Shown here in pieces: positions 42,989 to 56,000 of a stretch of DNA of 64,000 nt; position 1 is the first letter of the stretch, and each line of letters starts with the position of its first letter. A program made the translations under genes and the position numbers. The stretch comes from Onthophagus taurus (Eukaryota; Arthropoda; Insecta; Coleoptera; Scarabaeidae), in the NCBI RefSeq assembly GCF_036711975.1, contig NC_091966.1:36091501-36155500 (forward strand), in the 5' to 3' direction. Below the pieces are notes generated by a model. That model was not told the DNA's origin. It saw only the letters and a program-made list of their open reading frames with translations, and ran no database searches.

Positions 42989-45900
42989 TCAAGAATTTGA
43001 TGTTGGAAATAACGTTTTATAATGTTGAACATAATGAGTAAGACGTTCATCTAAAAAAAAATGTATTATTAATAAAATTCTCAATTGATTCAAAAATTGA
43101 TGAAGATATAATATTAACTAACCCAAGTGAAAACAGACTGAAATTTTTATGGAAGATTAATATAATATATGTATTTAAATGCCATATATATATATATATA
43201 TATATACAGATGTCACACAAAAAACGCCCCAAGCTGTAACTCTGTCATTTACAATCCGATTTTCATGAGCGAAGTATCAAATGAAATGGTTTTATAAATA
43301 CTATGATTCATGCTACAAATAAACTTTTTCCAATTTCAAGCGATTATCTACTCTTGATTTTCAAATTGCGCGGTATTTTTTCTTCACGTTATTGGATAGA
43401 GATTTTTTTTCTGAACCCATTGATGTGCAATACATTAACATTAATTGTAATTTTAGCAGAGAAAAACAATTACAACATTTTCCGAGCATTGTCATAGTCA
43501 CTTCTGTAATAGTGTAGTGTGCCATGCAAAAAAATAACGCGCAAAACTGATTTTATTTTTTCCATGCCACAGTACAGTATAACACAAGTAACTTTAAGAA
43601 AATGCTAGGAAACTATTTTAATGTTTTTCTATGCTACAATTACAATTAATGTTGATGTGTTGTACATTAATGAATCCTAAATTGATATCCCAAAAATCGA
43701 GTGTTCCCTGATTTTTTGAACAAATGTCTGCTGAAGCAGATTTTTCTAGAAAAATTCGAATAACTCGAGAACGGCCGAATCAAATTGCAAAAAGTAAAGT
43801 TATTCATAAACCTTGAAAACAAACAAATCCAAGAGTGTAAAAATATGCAGGTGTTCCATTAAAAAAAACATTTTGTGTCGCCAAATTTTTTTGGACCAAC
43901 CGGTCTATGCGAATATATTTTCCAGAAATACACTCATATATATATAGTACAAGTCTGCGTTTGAAAGAAATTCCTAACTTAATTGATATAGGAGCTATGG
44001 ATGCCTGACGCACTGTTGCAGGACCCTGTATATTCAAAAATAAAATTCAACAGAATAGTTGTATTATACCGATATTTGGTTTAAAACGCAGAGATCACGT
44101 AAGTTGTAAGATGGTCACTTTGAAATGGTTAAGCATGCAGAGGAGAAGATCGCTACACACCTTATGTCTATACTATAAAATAAAGACCTTACAAAAATCT
44201 CCGTATCTATCAGAAAAAGTAGGTTTTCGTGCGGACGTGCACTCGGTCAATGTTGGATTTAGGGGTAGATTATCTCTACCAATATTTTATACCGTAAGTT
44301 TTAAAAGATGTTTTTCAAACCAGATACGCTAAGTAATAAATGAACTTCCTCCTTGTTGTGTTTTGACTGAGTGTGCGTCTTTAGCCAGTTTCAGAAGGCA
44401 CTATGCTGATTTTTTACAGTTTGTATTATTGTTACAGTTTAGTATTAAACCGATGGCTTCGCACCAATTTAACATTTCATTCGCTACGCTAGTGATCCTT
44501 ATTGACAACTGCTGGACTGTGAATCAGCCTTTATTATAACAGAGCAATCGTCAACAAATAATACTTGCCTACAATTTTCACAAGATATCACATCTTTTAT
44601 GTACAAGATAAACAGCAATGGTATCAATATGCTTCCTTGCAGGACACCATATCTTATAGGGAGAAGGAATGAACTCACTCCACTATTGTTTTGTGTCCTA
44701 ATTGTTGTCTGCCACTCAGGTAACGTTGAATCCAGGCCAAGGCTGGGCCTCTGATACCGTACCGATTTAATTTTTGTAAAAGTAGTTGGTGATGTAATGT
44801 GTCGAATGTCAAAAAACAGACCACAGCAGGCAAAACGAGCATCGAAACCCTCTACATTGGATGTATAGAAATCCAAAACGGCGTCCTGCGTGGAGTTATG
44901 AGTTCTGAAGCCAAATTGTTGATTGTTAATTAAGTTACACTTACTCACGAACTCATCTAGCCGTTTAAAAAACGCTCTCTCATATGACAGGAAGAACGGC
45001 TTCAGATAGGAAGCAACCCATTGCAAAAGTTTCCCCTAAATACCAAACTTTGTTAGTTTAAACAGAACTAAGTTGTGATTCACCCGATCGAAAGCTTTAC
45101 TAAAATCCGTATAAACTGAATCAACTTGATAAGAAGTATCCAGAGAAGATAAGATATATTGAGCGACCAGCAAAGAAACCATGTTGTTTACCATGTTGTA
45201 AACAATAGACGTGCTTGAACCACTTCTCAGACACTTTCCCAAATGCTGGCAAAACAGATATGGGGCTAATAACGTTTCCATTTTCTGTGCGAACTTTTTT
45301 TTTTACGCAATGTAGTAATTGTGTCCCAAGAGAACCATGTAGGGTAATTTTTATTAGGTAACTTCCTGCGCGAAACAAATCTCTCAATAACCTCATTAAG
45401 TTAAGTATAAAACGTAATCTTAAATTATAATTAGAATTTATAAGTGATTAAAACATTTAAAAATAGGTCATAATAAATAATAATCGATCAAATTCATTCT
45501 AAATCTAAAAAATAATATTTACCTTTTAACCAAATTGAAGCAAATTGTGGATTAGATTTAAAATAAAATAATACACTATGAAATAAAGCGGGATCTTTCG
45601 ATTCTTCAGCAGCCTCTAAAAATTTCCGCGAATTCAAATTTTCCGGAGATAATTTCAAAGCTGCAATAACCTGATTTTGACTCAATAAAATTTCTTGAAT
45701 TTCTTCAAACGCACCTACAAAAAAAACGACTCAAACATTCAAAAATAAATAATTTTAAAAGCCGAACCTAGCCTAGATAACATATCCAAAGCTAATTGTG
45801 CAGCTGATTGATGCATATTTCCCAAAGATAACAATAAACAAGCCAAGGGTTTCGAATCACCAATAACCCCATATTGTAACATTTGTTGTAAAGCGCTAAA

Positions 45901-47741
45901 TCGATTCCTACGAACCTAAATTTAAATAAATCAAAAAACGTTTTTGGGGAAACAAAATAAATTCTTACTAAAGTTGTTACTAAAAGTTCGTTTAAGTTAT
46001 GTTGTGATGTAATTCCATGTTCGTGCAAACTGGTTAAATAAGCTACTAAAACCCATTCTAATTTTTGTGATTCACTCTCTGTATCCAACTTTTGAAAAAC
46101 ATTCCTAAACATATCGTCTTGATCTATTAAAACTGAAGGTGACAAATAAGATTTTGGGGGAAGTGGAGTCCCAACTGGGGCTCCTGTTTGTAATTGAAGC
46201 TCATCTTCAACCCAATTTCGATAAATTTTATTAATATGATTAAATGATTCGCGAAGTTTCTTTATTGGGGGTTTATCTTTTTTTGTATTTTCTAAAATTA
46301 ACTAAAAAAAAATAATGTTCTTAAACAATTCTTTTCGTTTTGATAAAAAATTTACAGATAAAAGCACACTTTTAGCTCCTTTACGTTTTAAAGCGACTTG
46401 TGTACATAAAGCCAAATCACTTATTTGTTTTAATAAATCTTCTAAATTCAATATAATATACCATAAACATCCCAATTTAGCATCTATAACTATATTAGGT
46501 TGAAAAACAACCCAATTTGGCGAATCTATGAATAATTTAAGTAAAAAAAATTCATTTGATACATTTTTAATTATTAAATTAAATGTAAAAGGATACACAT
46601 TTCACAAGCGTGTGTTTGTGGTTCAACCAACCCAGGTAGTTCTAAATAAGCCGGTTTAATTGATAATGAAGGCCCCACTGCACTATGATAGGTAACAACA
46701 CCATCATTTTCACCACTTACGCAAATATCAAAAATTTGAGACGTTTTGGAAGCCTAAAAAAGAAAATATTTAGCAACATTCAATTTTAGATTGAAATTTT
46801 TAACCTGATGATGAACAATTACAAGATTATCAACAACATTAATCGCAAAGCGTCCTTGTAATCCCAATCTTAAAACGTGGGACTTAATAGGAGCTTGTCC
46901 AGGTCCACTTAATGAGTGAATATGTACCTCAACAGTCTGTGGACTACTATAATGTCTAACGATTAAAACACATGGTATTCTGTATAAAGTAGCAATTGTT
47001 ACATCTCTCTCTAAAGCCATACGACCCAATTCAGCTTAAAAGAATAAAATTTAATTTTTTAAAACCCATCAATTAATAACTTACTATCCACTTTTGGTAA
47101 TTTGCTGACCGAACCAGGTTTAAAAACAACTGGAAGTAAGTTTGAACCGTGTGCAGAAGCTAAAAGTGCTATTTTATTCGTGGGGCACCACACGAACCAT
47201 TGAACAGTGGCGGAAATTGATTTTAAATGTTTCAAGCTACGTTTTTCTGGTATAACCATGTAAAGTTCAACACCATGATCCGTAATTAAAGCTACTTCGT
47301 TTACATGAGACCAAACAAAACCTAACACAGTGGAATTACGTTTACAAGTTTGAGAATATTCAGTTTCGATATCATTCCCATTGAAGTTCATAAATTCTAC
47401 TGAACAAATGGTTCTTTGAACAGCAAGTACTTTTTGGTCTAACGAAAACTTTATTGATATTACTGGACCATGGTCTTCCATACGGAAATTTAAGGGACGT
47501 TCGGTTTCTATAGGGCCTTTTACAACAACTCCCATTACCCCACTTGAACGAACCGCAAAAACCTAATTTAAAAAAAAATAAAATAAGTTAATTCAAAAAT
47601 CTAACATAACCTAACATTTAATTCATTAAATCTTACCTGCTTTTTAGAGTCATCGAAAAATACATTAGTCATTTGATTAACAGCTTCAAATCGTACAGGA
47701 TTTGGAGACAACTCCAAATAAGGTTTATCGTTTTTATTCAT
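42989..47741 (-). CDS. RMC1: RMC1 (Bulli), Mon1-Ccz1 complex subunit
   Basis: Nine exons on the minus strand: 47741-47637, 47562-47085, 47034-46805, 46753-46597, 46525-46356, 46301-45969, 45915-45768, 45714-45523 and 43050-42989. All join in phase to about 624 residues (human 657). Landmarks are QVFAVRSSGVMGVVVKGP, IKFSLDQKVLAVQRT, NVVDNLVIVHHQ, the junction CEMYSPNWVVFQPN, GVIGDSKPLACLLLSLG, and ENLNSRKFLEAAEESKDPAL. The small last exon (DERLTHYVQHYKTLFPTSNS) was found by phase and by similarity to the human tail. The fold is an N-terminal WD-like propeller and a C-terminal helical Mic1 domain. The protein is a stable subunit of the Mon1-Ccz1 Rab7 exchange factor on maturing endosomes and autophagosomes. 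Intron 8 (2.5 kb) holds LINE debris. A broken partial copy lies downstream at 48861-51414. Confidence 0.93.
43184..43206. repeat. (TA)n microsatellite
   Basis: A pure TA run of about 11 units in RMC1 intron 8. Confidence 0.9.
44110..45400. mobile_element. LINE fragments in RMC1 intron 8
   Basis: Three pieces are visible. The plus strand at 44110-44345 encodes WLSMQRRRSLHTLCLYYKIK and SPYLSEKVGFR, the usual C-terminus of a Jockey/CR1 ORF2. Minus strand 45026-44499 encodes RT parts NNQQFGFRTHNSTQDAVLDF and YGVLQGSILIPLLFILYIKD then LFVDD. Minus strand 45396-45036 encodes a second RT start, VISPISVLPAFGKVSEKWF and VYTDFSKAFDRVNHN. The overlap in RT content shows at least two different insertions. 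All are truncated. Confidence 0.75.
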
Positions 47742-48088
47742 TTCTTTTTTAATTAATGTTTATTAACCTAACCTAACTTATTTGACGTTTACTTGAAATC
47801 TAAAAATGATCCCAACATCTATATTTAAGCAGCATTTCTAATTGGTTGAGAAATCGCTCCATCTTTATTTTCGAGATTTTCTATCGCAGACTAATCGTAA
47901 GATACATATTTATTAAAATCTATTAAATTAACCTATTAATTTTAATGACAATTTTGAATAGGTGATCTAATCCATATTTGGAATTAATTTTTTTGTACAA
48001 AACAATTATTACGTCATAAAGATGTTATCATGACGAAAATCGTATGTAGTTTATCAAAATATATAAAACTCGCATTCGAAACCAGTAA
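47742..48088. promoter_or_regulatory. Divergent promoter of RMC1 and HINT3 copy A
   Basis: The 347 bp between the divergent starts is copied at 51415-51781 in front of HINT3 copy B, with conserved blocks such as CATCATAAAGATGTTATCATGACG-like sequence near 48013 and 51706. Conservation between copies would be expected from recent duplication alone, so it is not proof of function. Confidence 0.5.
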
Positions 48089-48711
48089 ATGGTCACATTG
48101 AAAACGTTACAAATCATCAAACTTCACATTGCATTTATTTGTGGTTTAACTTTCTTGGGGTTATTCTACATAAGCATCATGTCTACGGACGAACGTTGTA
48201 TTTTCTGCAAAATCTGCGCGCATAAAGAAGAAGCGGCAATTTTATATGAAGATGGAGAATTCATTGTGTTCAAAGATATCAAACCAGCCACTGAACATCA
48301 CTATTTAGTAATTCCTAAAATTCATATTAAAGGAGCTAATGTTTTAACTAAAGAGCATTTGCCGATGTGTAAGTTAGCTAGTTTTAACTTTAATTTGTAG
48401 TGTTTGTTTATTATTTTTCTTTGTAGTGGAAAAAATGGAACATTTAGCAAAACAAATTTTACAAGAACAAGGAGCTTCCTTAGACGATATCCGTTTGGGC
48501 TTCCATTGGCCACCTTTTAACAGCATTAACCATTTACATTTACATGCAATGGGACCTGCTAAAAATATGGGAATTATATCAAAGTCAATATTTAAACCTG
48601 ATTCATTTTGGTTTGTTACTGTATGTATTACTTGATAATTTTTGAAAATTTGCTAATATTTTATTCCTTTTTTAGCTGGATTATATGTACATTAGACTTA
48701 ACAAACTCTAA
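48089..48711 (+). CDS. HINT3: Histidine-triad nucleotide-binding protein, copy A (HINT3-like)
   Basis: Three exons (48089-48368, 48427-48620, 48676-48711) join in phase to 169 residues. The HIT domain starts at DERCIFCKICAHKEEAA. It contains YEDGEFIVFKDIKPATEHHY and LVIPKIHIKGANVL, then RLGFHWPPFNSINHLHLHAM with the catalytic triad H129-x-H131-x-H133. Vertebrate HINT3 proteins hydrolyse adenosine phosphoramidates and acyl-adenylates. Before the domain lies a strongly hydrophobic stretch, IIKLHIAFICGLTFLGLFYI (residues 9-28), which would act as a membrane anchor if the first ATG is used; translation from the internal ATG at 48179 would omit it. Copy B lacks that internal ATG. RMC1 is head to head with this gene. 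Confidence 0.88.
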
Positions 48712-49011
48712 TTATTGTTGTTGCACTAACTGTTAGATAATTGTATTACTCACAAGTTTAAATTTTAGAAATTGATGGTTTTTTGGTTGTGATACTAAAT
48801 AATTTTTTATTGTTTGTTTTTATTAATGGTTATATACAAAATTTTAACTAATAAATCAATAATGAAGGCCCCACTGCACTATGATATGTAACACCATCAT
48901 TTCTCCACTAACACAAATATAAAAAATTTGAGAGGTTTTGGAAGCCTAAAAAAGGGAAATATTCACCAACAGTCAATTTTAAATTATAATTTTTAATCTA
49001 CTGATGAACGT

Positions 49012-49578
49012 CATACACACTAATTAAATTTACAGAAAATTTTTACGTAAAACGATATATGCAAGTATATGTATGAACACAAAGTAAAAGAAATATTTTG
49101 ATAAATTTTATATTTGGTGTAATTTGAAGTGAAAAAACGAAATCCAATTCAAACGAAATAATTTCGCGGTTTTTCTGTGACGTAGCAAGTGCACAGTCTC
49201 AACAACTTAAATTGTCCGTTAGATGGCGCTCGCGGTATGACAGTTTCAAAACAAAACCATGGATGTAATAGAGAGTCTCTATTGCAACCATGAACAAAAC
49301 ATAATAAACATAACCTATAAATACTCTATCTCTTTTCAATCCAACCTACCTAAATAACGTTCATCTCTTTCTCGCATTTGAGCGGGGAGTACGGGACGCA
49401 AAGGTGATACTCGTACGTCATCAATGCGGGAATTTTAAAAGCGTAAATGGGTATATAAATTTTCAAAAATTTTTTTAAAAATGATTCTGTTCGAAAATAT
49501 TTAAAAAAAAAATACTGGTAATTATATTTTTATACAAATTTTCAGAAAATATAATAAAAAAAATCGTGTATGACCCCA
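49012..49578. mobile_element. GTCATACAC MITE, left copy, inside the RMC1 pseudogene
   Basis: An element of about 567 bp begins GTCATACAC and ends GTGTATGACCCC, splitting the pseudogene's exon 3 between GATGAAC and ATTAC. It carries an internal palindrome CATGGATGTAATAGAGAGTC ... CCATGAAC and AAATTATTTCGCGG. A second copy in the opposite orientation is at 50682-51262. Confidence 0.7.
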
Positions 49579-49635
49579 TTACGAATATCAACAACGCAAA
49601 GTTTCGTTTGAATTATAGTTACTTTATATTATTAG

Positions 49636-49686
49636 AGGTTGGTAACAGGAGAGCTCACTCATTCTCCTGTTACCAACATCTAATAT
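49636..49686. repeat. Short perfect hairpin
   Basis: GTTGGTAACAGGAGA pairs with TCTCCTGTTACCAAC around a 12-base loop, with further AT-rich pairing outside (TTATATTATTAGAG / ATCTAATATTAATATAA). It is probably a very small MITE or MITE end. Confidence 0.7.
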
Positions 49687-49836
49687 TAATATAATATAAA
49701 ATATAAGAACAAGGTTACGCACATTTAAGACTAACAATAAGTATTAAACAGTTTCTATAGGGACTTTTACAAGAACACCCATTACCCCACTTGAACGAAC
49801 CGCAAAAACCTAATTAAAAAAAAAAAAAAAACAAGT

Positions 49837-50681
49837 TGGGGTGTAAATAGGGCATTGAGGTCTTATATATAATCTAGAGTGCGTATGCTGTTGTCCCCAC
49901 CACGCCTAAAATGAAGCCAGAAAGGTCGCCATGTTAGATGTACCAACTTAGCGGGAAATTCGAAATTTTTATATATACGTATACAAGAATTTACATTATT
50001 ATAAACTGGAAAGACAGAAAATAATAACCAAAACAAAACATAAATTTTTTTTTGATAAATAATTAATTATATGATATTTTAAAAGAACTTAATAATTTTT
50101 AGCCATAACCCTTATAATTAATATAAACTAAGAAGAAAATATTTAAAGCAATTCTGATTGATCACGTTAACCTTTGCTTATAAATAATTGTTAGTTTATT
50201 AAAAAAAACTGAACAGTCCTTAATAATAAACTTTACTTGAACTTCAATTGAAGACCTCGGTGTAAGAAGGGAGTAGCTCCATTTATCAAGACAAGGAGTT
50301 GTCCCCTTCTTACACCGAGGTCTTTAATTGTTAATTCTAAGTCAAGTAACCAGAAACATTTTATGGACTGTTGTAAATAATCGTCCAACCTACCAAATTA
50401 TAAAAAACATGTGTGAAACGAAAAGAATTTGAAAACTTTCAACAAAAATCAAATTTTAATAAAAATAACAATATGTTTATGAGAATTGTGAGGTTATTTA
50501 TTATTATTATTATTCTTCTATTGGTGGGGTTTTGGAAATGTGAGGTTATAATTGTAGGTACAATAGAGACTTGAAACTATAGCTAAGTTCAGGTCGGTAC
50601 ATCCAACATGTCTGACTTTCTGATTACCCCCACCACCACCACATACGCTCTCTAGATTATATATAAGCCTCAATGAAATGG
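49837..50681. mobile_element. GGGGTGTAAATAG foldback element with a nested hairpin
   Basis: The left end GGGGTGTAAATAGGGCATTG and right end CAATGAAATGGGG are inverted, and both sides carry TATATAATCTAGAG in mirrored order. A perfect inner hairpin at about 50244-50336 pairs GACCTCGGTGTAAGAAGGG with CCCTTCTTACACCGAGGTC. The right end abuts the next MITE copy, sharing GGGG. Confidence 0.65.
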
Positions 50682-51262
50682 GGTCATACACGATTTTTTT
50701 TTTATTATATTTTCTGAAAGTTTATATAAAAATATAGTTACCGTTATTTTTTTTTTTTTTATTTTCGAACAAAGTCATTGTTAAAAAAATTATTGAAAAT
50801 TTATATACCCATTTGCGCTTTTAAAATTCCCGCGTTGATAACGTACGATTCTCACTTTTGCGTTCCCTGTTCCCCGCTCAAATGCGAGAAAGAGATAAAC
50901 GTCATTTAGGTTGTATTGAAAAGAGATAGAGTGTTTGTAGGTTATGTTTATTATGTTTTGTTCATGGATGTAATAGAGACACTCTATTACATCCATGGTT
51001 TTATTTTGACACTGTCACACCGCAAGCGCTATCTAACGGACAATTTAACTTGTTTTAGGCAGTGCGGTTCTACGTCACAGAAAAGCCGCGAAATTATTTC
51101 GTTTGAATATTTGCTATTTTTCACTTCAAATTACGCAAAATATAAAATTGATCAAAATATAAAATTGATCAAAATATTTCTTTTACTTTGTATTCATGCA
51201 TATACTTGCATATATCGTTTGACATAAAAATTTTCTCTAAATTTAATAAGTGTGTATGACCC
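50682..51262. mobile_element. GTCATACAC MITE, right copy, inverted
   Basis: Ends are GGGGTCATACAC and GTGTATGACCCC. Its body is the reverse complement of the copy at 49012-49578, including CATGGATGTAATAGAGACAC and its mirrored half. It sits in intron 1 of the RMC1 pseudogene. The two copies could pair as a giant hairpin over 1.1 kb of intervening DNA. Confidence 0.7.
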
Positions 51263-51781
51263 CATTCAAAAATCTAACATAACCTAACATTTAATTCATT
51301 AAATCTTACCTATTTTTTAGAGTCATCGAAAAATACATTAGTCATTTGATTAACAGCTTCAAATCACACAGGATTTGAAGACAATTCCAAATAAAGTTTA
51401 TCGTTCTTATTCATTCCTTTTAATTAATGTTTTGTTATTATCCTAACCTAACTTATTTGACGTTTACGCCATTTACTAGAAATCTAAAAATGATTCCAAC
51501 ATCTATAGTTAAACAACATTTTTAATTGATTGAGAAATCGCTCCATCTTTCTTTTCGACATTTTATATCGCATACTAGCCGTAAGATACATATTTACTGA
51601 AATTTATTAAACTAACCTATTAATTCATATTAATTTTAATGACAATTTTGAATAGGTGATCTAATCCATATTCGGAATTAATTTTTTGTACAAAATAATT
51701 ATTGCATCATAAAGATGTTATCATGACGAAAATCGTATGTAGTTTATCAAAATATATAAAACTCGCGTTTGAAACCAGTAA

Positions 51782-52405
51782 ATGGTCACATTGCAAATGT
51801 TACAAATCATCAAACTTCATATTGCGTTTATTTGTGGTTTAGCTTTCCTAGGGTTATTCTATGTGAGAATCATTTCTACGGACGAACGTTGTATTTTCTG
51901 CAAAATCTGTGCGCATAAAGCAGAAGCGGAAATTTTATATGAAGATGGAGAATTCATTGTGTTCAAAGATATCAAACCATCCGCTGAACATCACTATTTA
52001 GTAATTCCTAAAATTCATATTAGAGGGGCTAATGTTTTAACTAAAGAGCATTTGCCGATGTGTAAGTTAACTAGTTTTAACTTTAATTTGTAGTGTTTGT
52101 TTGCTATTTTTCTTTGTAGTAGAAAAAATGGAACATTTAGCAAAACAAATTTTACAAGAACAAGGAGCTTCCTTAGACGATATCCGTTTGGGCTTCCATT
52201 GGCCACCTTTTAACAGCATTAACCATTTACATTTACATGCAATGGGACCTGTTAAAAATATGAGAATTATATCAAAGTCAATATATAAACCTGATTCATT
52301 TTGGTTTGTTACCGTATGTATATTAGTTGGTACTTTTTGAAAATTGCTAATATTTTATTCCTTTTTTAGCTGGATTATATGTACAATAGACTTAATAAAC
52401 TCTAA
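51782..52405 (+). CDS. HINT3: Histidine-triad nucleotide-binding protein, copy B (HINT3-like)
   Basis: Tandem paralogue of copy A with the same three-exon structure (51782-52061, 52120-52313, 52370-52405) and 169 residues. The HIT triad NHLHLHAM is intact, as are CIFCKIC and all splice sites. Differences include A49E in EAEILYEDG, R for K near residue 81 and MR for MG near the end. The internal ATG used as an alternative start in copy A is ATT here, so the only sensible start is the upstream one, giving an obligate hydrophobic N-terminus IIKLHIAFICGLAFLGLFYV. The promoter region is duplicated from copy A, with a dead RMC1 exon opposite. Both copies look functional. Confidence 0.87.
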
Positions 52406-53020
52406 TTATTCTTGTTTTTGACGTTTTTAAATTTTAGAAATTGATGGTTTTTTGATTGTGATACTACATAATTGTTTGTTTTTATTAATGGTTATATAAA
52501 AAATGTAACTAATAAATCAAGGGTAAATAAGTGTTGATTAATTAATATATTAAAATCCTTAATTAGAATTAAAAAGAAAATTGAGGTATATATATGTAAT
52601 TTGGGTTGCATAATATAAATTGAAATGGATTTTAATATTTTCGTGAAATTTATTGCACCGAAAAGCAAATATTAAATATATTGAGTTATTAAATGAATAT
52701 TTTATTTTAATTGTATATTATTGTATTCGTAATGGAAATTTTTAAGCATTTTATTAAAATTTTAGTAAGAAAATTTAGTTGGTAACAATTCTTTTGACAC
52801 TGTCTTCAGTGACATTGAACGTCAAAACAAAAAACACCCATCGCTTCGCGTATAATTTAATATTAGCAATATCTCGGTGACGTTTCGAAACGCGTTTAAG
52901 CTTAACGTTACGTTATCCTTATAGAGTTTTTCCGTTCCAATCCAACCGCTTTGTCTCAAAAAAAAATCTAATAAACCAAATTTTTTTCTGCAATGACTTA
53001 ATCGTCATTTAAACGCAACG
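52406..53020. other. Intergenic region between HINT3 copy B and RhoGAP68F
   Basis: The first 120 bp are the duplicated downstream flank of HINT3. The duplication ends near 52520 after ACTAATAAATCAA. The remainder holds the presumed RhoGAP68F promoter. No other feature is seen. Confidence 0.5.
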
Positions 53021-56000
53021 ATGGATAATAACAAATTGAGCCCAATGAAAACCCAACCAGGTACTTATAAAGTTTTAAATTAAATACCCCATTCTTATCT
53101 AATCCACCCAGATTTATCAATATCTTATCATGTTTTCTTTCATTAATTCGTAGATCCTGAGGAACCGTACCCAAGTTTATCAGATTATCATGATTACGAA
53201 CCGAATCTTGAATTCGACGACACCGAACTTTTGCAAGCTCCAAATGAAATGGATAATGGGGAGTTATTAATTGATTTCATGGAGAACGAATCGAACGGAA
53301 TGGGTTCGCCTGTTTCTGATTTTACTGATGAAAATTATGATGAACTTCTCAATGGTCCGGCTAGTTTCAGTTTTGGTACGGATACTTATCCAGAAGTTGG
53401 TGGAGTAAGCTTTAGTGATATCGCCAAATATGGAATTGTTGATGTTAAGGGTGATGATGCAGATGGACGTAAAGTTATTGTTGTTTATGCTTGTAAATTA
53501 CCTCCTACTAATATGATCGACCACAACTGTTTATTAGAGTAAGTATGTTTTTAAATTTGTATTTATTAAATTTTGAAAATAGAAGATCTTTTGATCTTTA
53601 AGGAGATCAATGATTAATAAAGACTGAGTTAGTCATAATCTTATCAATTGCGGTTACTCATTTCAGTTTTATACAAATAAATATGAAATTTGATTAGTAA
53701 TAAGACAAATTTTATTAAAAAAATTAAAATTTAATCTTATCAGTGTTTGTGTGAATTCTAGGAAATGCAATTAAATAAAAAAAGAACTTTTTGAATTGGT
53801 TAATTACAAATACAAGTAGTTATGTAAATAAAATTATATTGAGTAAAAAAAAGCGGAAGTATTTCTATTGGTATGTTGTTTGCATACAAACTACATGTAG
53901 GTGTGGTGTTGCATAATGATGAAAGTACCTAAGAACATGGTGACATTGCGTATTATTCAAATTAACCAAGCCAGGTGGTTTAAAACTAATTTATTAAGTG
54001 AATTTTAAATATATGGTTTAAGTTAATTACTTAGCAGAATCTAATCAAAAGAAGAAAATCAATGAATTTTATTAATTAACTCCCATTATTGTTTCTTTTT
54101 ATATGCTGTAGTTACATCCTCTTCACTTTTTTTACATATACAAAGTAAATAAAGGGAATGTATTGTAATCATAATAATGATCTATATGTTTTGAAGATTC
54201 TTAAATTAATATCAACTATTTTTAATATCATGTATGTAAACATGATAACTCAAAAACCAATCAGATGTGGTGATAATATTTGCTATATAACTATAACACT
54301 AAAATAATAATAATAATACTTTATTGAACCAAGATATAAGAACCTAAGATATCAATCAATTAACAAAAATGTAATTCAAGCTCAATGAGTGCAAGAGCAA
54401 GCATCATTAAGGTTGGCAAACACAAAATTGCTCATTACAAAAATGAACCCTACACCATTTCGCGTAAAACAATAAGTTGAGTGAGCAAAGCCGGCTCACC
54501 TTGCAGAACCGGGAGTCGAATTCTAAAAACGAGCAACCTGGTACGAAAATTAACACTGGAATTTGGAAAACTTATGAGAAAGAATGTTTAAACAAAATCT
54601 GTGCTGGAGATTGATGTTATGAACATCCACTCTGAACGTAATTTTACGACTGAGATAAGGCGGCTTACAGGAAGTAATAGATTAAAATGAAAGACACGTA
54701 ACGAACCGCAACTCTCTGTCGCATATTCAGTCAATCACTAGAATCTAGTGACTAGATAATAAAACTTGCGAAGATTATACATAAAACGAAAACACAAATT
54801 CTGCGCGACCTAAACCCTCCTTAAACTCTCATGGGATAAACATGAACCGAATGAGATCATAATAATTAAAGTAAAACAACATAAGAGAATTACAAAGTAG
54901 TCGTAAAAACGTAAAGTAAAGACTTCTTAGGAAACCATAAGCACACCTACATATGATAGTAAATTTGTATCATGTTCAGGTATAAATTTATCAACTTGAA
55001 GTGGCTCTTAACCTGAACACTAATCCAACCTCTCATACACTTTAAATAAAGGGACATGACAAATTTATAACGTCTAGATATTTAAAAATTCAATCACATT
55101 ATATAACCGGAGATTTTTTTGCCACATTTTGAAATAACCTCAGATTTATAATAAATTTAATATTTCATTCTTCAATGGATTTATATAAAAATGCGAGAAA
55201 GCTGATTCTTGACAACTGCAGTTAATTCTCCTGATCTTTCTGAATTATGTTTATTACAAATATTTTCATTTCTTCACAAGTTTGAGTACTACTGAATTAT
55301 ACTAAGCAGGCTTTGCTTTGCAATTTGTTTCTAGTTTTGTAATTTTGTTGTTTTTAATACAATATGCAAGTTTATTTATTAAAACTTAAATTTTAACGTA
55401 AATTTTCACATTGAAGAGTGATAAAACAGAAGTGATAAATTTATTCGTATAAACAACCTCTAAAAAAATATCTCAAAAATGACTTTTATGTGTCAAATTA
55501 AAGCTATATACATAAGCAAAGCCTGCTTAGTATAATTCTTTATACAGCAGTACTTAAACTTTCAAACCCTTAACTTTATTGTATCATATCTTAAGAATAG
55601 TAAAGAATGGGACATTGTGTTATAAGAATTTTTTATACACAAAAAGGGGGCTTATAACCCCTCAAATTTTTTCTACTCATACCTGATACATCCTGTACAG
55701 TAAAGAAACGGTTGATCGCTTATTCGCCGTAAAAGTCTTCCCCATTATTGGATCTAATAGGACCATATCTTGGTTTAATACCGTAAGCTTGAGTAATCAT
55801 TTCTAGATGTCTTTGAATCTTGTGATGCATTAGGTACATAATGGATTTAATTGTTCTCTACATATGAATTGACTGCAAGTCAGTGTGTAATAATTATGAT
55901 GGATAAAGAATGTTGGGTAAGGTAGTTTTTTGGCAATGGATAACATTTTTCTGTAAATCGTATAGAGGAAGCTGTAATAACAGCTTCATAAAGCAATTGA

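Follow-up and report, generated by a model that had tools for sequence, protein, structure and literature searches.

Introduction

The closest described parallels to the locus examined here are tandem segmental duplications in which one gene is copied whole and its neighbor only in part. The rates at which duplications arise are among the matters treated in PMC3857721. The present case lies in a window of 64,000 nucleotides (the whole stretch of DNA analyzed) from the beetle Onthophagus taurus, and it resembles these duplications in being a direct head-to-tail repeat with a breakpoint inside one gene, and in that the other gene is complete and the truncated copy has decayed. It differs from them in nothing of principle, the genes involved and the inserts they have gained being local details.

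One of the two genes is HINT3, identified in PMC6878047 as the mammalian orthologue of Drosophila CG34015; among the papers searched, we found none joining HINT3 with a tandem gene duplication. Both copies at this locus are like HINT3 in possessing the DcpS_C and HIT domains and an HLHLH motif, but differ in that 30 open codons, hydrophobic in what they encode and putatively translated, precede the HIT core. The name itself rests on a C-terminal pattern that we take to be that of human HINT3, which GFH.PPF.SI.HLHLH resembles; of the 43 PDB sequences in the match list, not one is named HINT3. The other gene is RMC1 (regulator of MON1-CCZ1), of which copy A matches both Pfam domains, whereas copy B amounts to a 5' fragment that has decayed.

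Structure and origin of the duplication

The locus is an ordinary tandem segmental duplication, head-to-tail (Table 1). A BLAST comparison of 44001-56000 against itself returned three direct matches, all collinear: 46663-46816 pairs with 48859-49009 (86% identity), 47504-47583 with 49751-49830 (94%), and the HINT3 block at 47591-48859 with 51264-52520 (89.5%, E=0), the two pieces other than the HINT3 block having E values of 1.3e-45 and 2.5e-29. This direct, adjacent and collinear repeat, well beyond chance, bears out the initial annotation, which had read a unit from about 46663 to 48860 as recurring in order. Its further claim of a readable junction, where the downstream flank of HINT3 runs into exon 4 of RMC1, likewise stands, but its positions for that junction (48861) and for the end of the repeat (52525) were a few bases off. 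Copy A of the unit comprises the first three exons of RMC1 and a part of the fourth on the minus strand, a shared promoter, and the whole of HINT3-A on the plus strand; the stretch between 46817 and 47503 has no counterpart in copy B detectable by BLAST. In the organism's own genome (291 Mb, 33 contigs), a search with the unit, in which scores were assigned to the best candidates only, listed four matches, namely the unit itself and three pieces of copy B. Of the telomeric repeat patterns, TCAGG had no match and TTAGG had three overlapping ones at a single place, against 11 for the reversed pattern; a search for a telomerase domain found nothing, nor did any control give a signal.

Table 1. 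Features of the duplicated locus, with positions counted from the first letter of the window
Feature	Positions	Strand	Basis and remarks
RMC1 copy A	45494..47741	-	Pfam RMC1_N and RMC1_C; gene model
RMC1-A exons	1: 47637-47741; 2: 47085-47562; 3: 46805-47034; 4: from 46753 down; rest to ~45494	-	
Duplicated unit, copy A	46663..48859		2197 bp; self-BLAST, edges read from the sequence
HINT3-A	48089..48711 (exons 48089-48368, 48427-48620, 48676-48711)	+	169 aa; gene model, Pfam
Junction of the tandem copies	48859..48860		3' flank of HINT3-A meets RMC1 exon 4; read from the sequence
Duplicated unit, copy B	48860..52520		3661 bp with insertions counted; self-BLAST, edges read from the sequence
RMC1-B exon 4 / intron 3 remnant	48860..49009	-	18/150 sites changed; exon part frameshifted
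MITE1, older insertion	49010..49580		51/569 sites off the consensus of 14 copies
RMC1-B exon 2 / intron 1 remnant	49751..49830	-	80 bp; self-BLAST
824-bp repeat element	49853..50676		Terminal inverted repeats of ~35 bp; self-BLAST, genome search
MITE2, recent, inverted relative to MITE1	50677..51260		13/574 sites off consensus
RMC1-B exon 1	51310..51414	-	In-frame TGA inside, TAG as last codon; splice donor kept
HINT3-B	51782..52405 (exons 51782-52061, 52120-52313, 52370-52405)	+	169 aa; gene model, Pfam

Briefly, we envisage the following sequence of events. In one tandem segmental duplication, some 2.2 kb in length, HINT3 was copied completely, whereas RMC1, which is transcribed divergently from it, was copied in its 5' part. 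Since there is almost no homology at the junction (about 1 bp, a single ambiguous A common to both sides), the copies were probably joined by end-joining. HINT3-B would have brought along a promoter copy of its own. RMC1-B decayed by point mutation and deletion and gained one old MITE, one recent MITE and a recent 824-bp element. HINT3-A and RMC1-A, judging from their open frames, would remain standard genes. A duplication caused by the MITEs themselves is not supported, because no breakpoint falls within a MITE and the MITEs occur in copy B only. A processed (retrotransposed) origin of the second HINT3 is rejected because HINT3-B keeps both introns.

Decay of the RMC1 copy and its inserts

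The parental RMC1-A is recognized by matches to RMC1_N (E 3.4e-44) and RMC1_C (E 1.8e-22 and 3e-10). A search of GT-AG sites with an open frame as the criterion yields a model of 618 aa, one among 12 solutions. The RMC1_N profile has one match among those listed in the organism's own genome. Directly downstream of RMC1, at 44499-45035, we observed a fragment of a reverse transcriptase (Pfam RVT_1, E 4.7e-07).

RMC1-B, in contrast, is a dead 5' fragment, with stops, a frameshift and missing parts, much as had first been described. Its exon 4 retains the original frame as far as ...CVSGE and continues as ...YHSAVGPSL in a different one; exon 1 holds two stops; and BLAST recovers just the 80-bp piece from the region of exons 2 and 3, to which about 30 bp following MITE1 that by eye look like exon 3 might be added. 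The remnants differ from copy A at 32 of 382 sites (8.4%; 18/150, 5/80 and 9/152 by piece) and have undergone two indel events in those 382 bp. A short palindromic (hairpin) element was also noticed within the RMC1-B remnant at 49627-49688.

The MITE insertions reported in this copy are two, of about 575 bp and of one family, accompanied by the 824-bp repeat element. Judged by the distances from the consensus and from another copy of the 824-bp element, MITE1 is probably an old insertion, and MITE2 and the 824-bp element are probably recent ones. The 14 consensus copies, drawn from 13 loci, themselves show 7 to 16 differences in about 577 sites, and the 824-bp element shares 99.4% identity with another of its copies. 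MITE1 has at least 41 matches in the genome, the query included (best 40 of 160 candidates scored), and the 824-bp element, which contains an inner 118-bp palindrome at 50230-50347, has at least 146 matching pieces (best 40 of 200 candidates scored). The death of RMC1-B needs no special explanation, because it was copied without its 3' half and could not replace RMC1.

Probable constraint on the second HINT3 copy

Both HINT3 copies run to 169 codons, their GT-AG introns falling at equivalent positions, and exceed the Pfam cut-off for DcpS_C and HIT alike (DcpS_C E 1.1e-34 and HIT E 2.2e-11 in A; DcpS_C E 6.7e-34 in B), such that each combines the HIT domain with the histidine triad motif of the family. 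Of what is expected of a functional duplicate, HINT3-B has kept its open frame, splice sites and domain; the frame and the splice sites had been noted at the outset. Six matches to HINT3 were listed in the genome, four being the exons of the two copies and two distant (E 4.8e-7 and 0.003), and no other close HINT3 relative was found among them; eight were listed for DcpS_C, four belonging to A and B and four to three other places. A search of viral contigs for a HINT3 outgroup gave seven pattern matches, none of them a relative by tblastn. Downstream of HINT3-B, at 53147-53542, there is an open plus-strand frame of 131 aa that has no Pfam match at E 0.01 and is probably an exon of the next gene.

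Taken together, the evidence favors, at a probability of roughly 0.7, a single tandem duplication of about 2.2 kb followed by the decay of RMC1-B and the probable retention of HINT3-B under relaxed constraint. The 420 nt of the HIT core differ between the copies by 15 changes and no indel, against 50 of 573 non-coding sites (8.7%) with nine indel events (Fisher p=0.001, a value in which the constraint of both lineages is counted); the non-coding set consists of the intergenic sequence, the two introns and the 3' flank, the 30-codon N-terminal stretch and the three RMC1-B pieces being left out of the comparison. In 20,000 runs of a neutral simulation confined to copy B, starting from copy A and applying the non-coding rates halved, the frame, the stop and the splice sites were all still intact in 0.97% of cases for the core and in 0.33% for the full frame. 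A joint figure that also capped amino-acid changes at 11 is set aside, because this cap does not suit the full frame with its 15 changes. The corresponding probabilities of an intact copy are 2.9% and 1.6% if indels are taken to occur as often as in the RMC1-B remnants, and 2.4% and 1.2% with a pooled rate; over the three rates the recalculated values span 0.4-2.9%, for an overall range of 0.3-3%. This improbability is driven mostly by the absence of indels, for which the RMC1-B rate gives a probability of 0.11 in the core and 0.07 in the full frame.

In the core there are 10 replacement and five silent changes, a dN/dS of 0.46 that does not lie significantly below 1 (p=0.14). The whole frame, with 15 amino-acid differences, has 15.5 and 10.5, for an omega of 0.34 (p=0.017, from rounded counts). 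Both pairwise tests include the constraint on copy A. The 10 amino-acid changes in the core compare with 14.2 expected in a neutral B (probability of 11 or fewer, 0.23), so that the number alone does not reject neutrality; likewise, 18.3 core changes would be expected in B alone at half the non-coding rate, against 15 in both lineages (P=0.26). Fixing omega of A at 0.05, 0.1, 0.2 or 0.3 gives a best estimate for B of 0.6, 0.55, 0.45 or 0.35, respectively, with an interval that includes 1 at the first two settings. Pointing the other way, RMC1-B differs from A as much as it does even though A is mostly coding there, which implies that B may have changed faster than the simulated rate; if most of that change is in B, the constraint on HINT3-B, or gene conversion, would be stronger than these tests say. 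A relaxed but real constraint fits best, and the survival of HINT3-B as a gene is likely.

Among the competing readings, the one that fares best is that HINT3-B is a young pseudogene, which has lost its normal start and by chance has so far acquired neither stop nor indel. We regard it as unlikely. It draws on the core dN/dS just given and on the start: the methionine codon right before the HIT core, codon 31, is ATG in A (48179) and ATT in B, so that HINT3-B depends on an upstream in-frame ATG, found at 48089 in A and kept at 51782 in B (codon 6 is a further ATG, at 51797, in B only). The sequence TATATAAAA stands 29 bp 5' of that upstream ATG in both copies (48060 in A, 51753 in B), and the ATG may therefore lie at or before the start of transcription; transcription beginning near 48089 could make 48179 the first usable ATG. 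The low neutral survival of frame and splice sites speaks against the loss of the gene, as do the first 30 codons, which are open in both copies. There, 11 of 90 sites have changed, silent sites proportionally more often than replacement sites (Fisher p=0.0498 on rounded counts), and the encoded extension is hydrophobic (best 19-residue mean hydropathy 2.06 in A and 2.03 in B), which argues for coding. Hence, the first description of HINT3-B as live holds for its frame, splice sites and HLHLH motif, but is tempered by the missing codon 31 ATG, which it did not mention, and the core dN/dS; correspondingly, of the two fates it assigned, the death of the partial copy is secure and the survival of the complete one plausible rather than proven.

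A second possibility, rather unlikely in our estimate and compatible with either fate of the gene, is that gene conversion between A and B kept B similar, in which case its open frame would say little about selection. It would account for exon 2 having 130 bp in a row without a difference (48429-48558) and for silent sites being changed at 7 of ~133 positions in the central block as against 52 of ~534 elsewhere by a hand tally; moreover, MITE1 at 9% from its consensus and RMC1-B at its 8.4% from A would allow a non-coding distance between the copies above the 8.7% seen. However, the contrast in silent change falls short of significance (p=0.12), exon 2 is under constraint in any case, and part of the MITE1 distance may have accumulated in the source copy of the family.

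A third and quite improbable reading draws on the same start-codon change: the start of HINT3-B would have moved into what is leader in A, with B producing only an N-terminally extended, possibly membrane-anchored form and A the ordinary soluble one. Apart from this reading, a short upstream ORF overlaps the start of HINT3, at 48030-48101 in A (23 aa) and, its stop lost, at 51723-51842 in B (39 aa); its first part falls within a stretch, surrounding the TATA-like box, in which the copies do not differ. Finally, an assembly artefact from uncollapsed haplotypes or a misjoin is highly improbable, as a divergence of ~10%, a partial tandem unit and insertions in one copy do not look like allelic duplication, and the locus is situated inside a contig of 44.24 Mb.

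Conclusions

Under the favored reading, in which HINT3-B is retained under relaxed constraint, this copy probably still yields a HIT-family hydrolase, its translation beginning at an ATG upstream of codon 31. That the partial gene is dead and the whole gene kept is the expected outcome, and the general view of such duplications is unchanged, this being an ordinary event in genome evolution. The loss of the codon 31 ATG in HINT3-B poses one testable question about the duplicate, and the locus as a whole offers a clear example of how the breakpoint of a duplication decides the fate of two adjacent genes.
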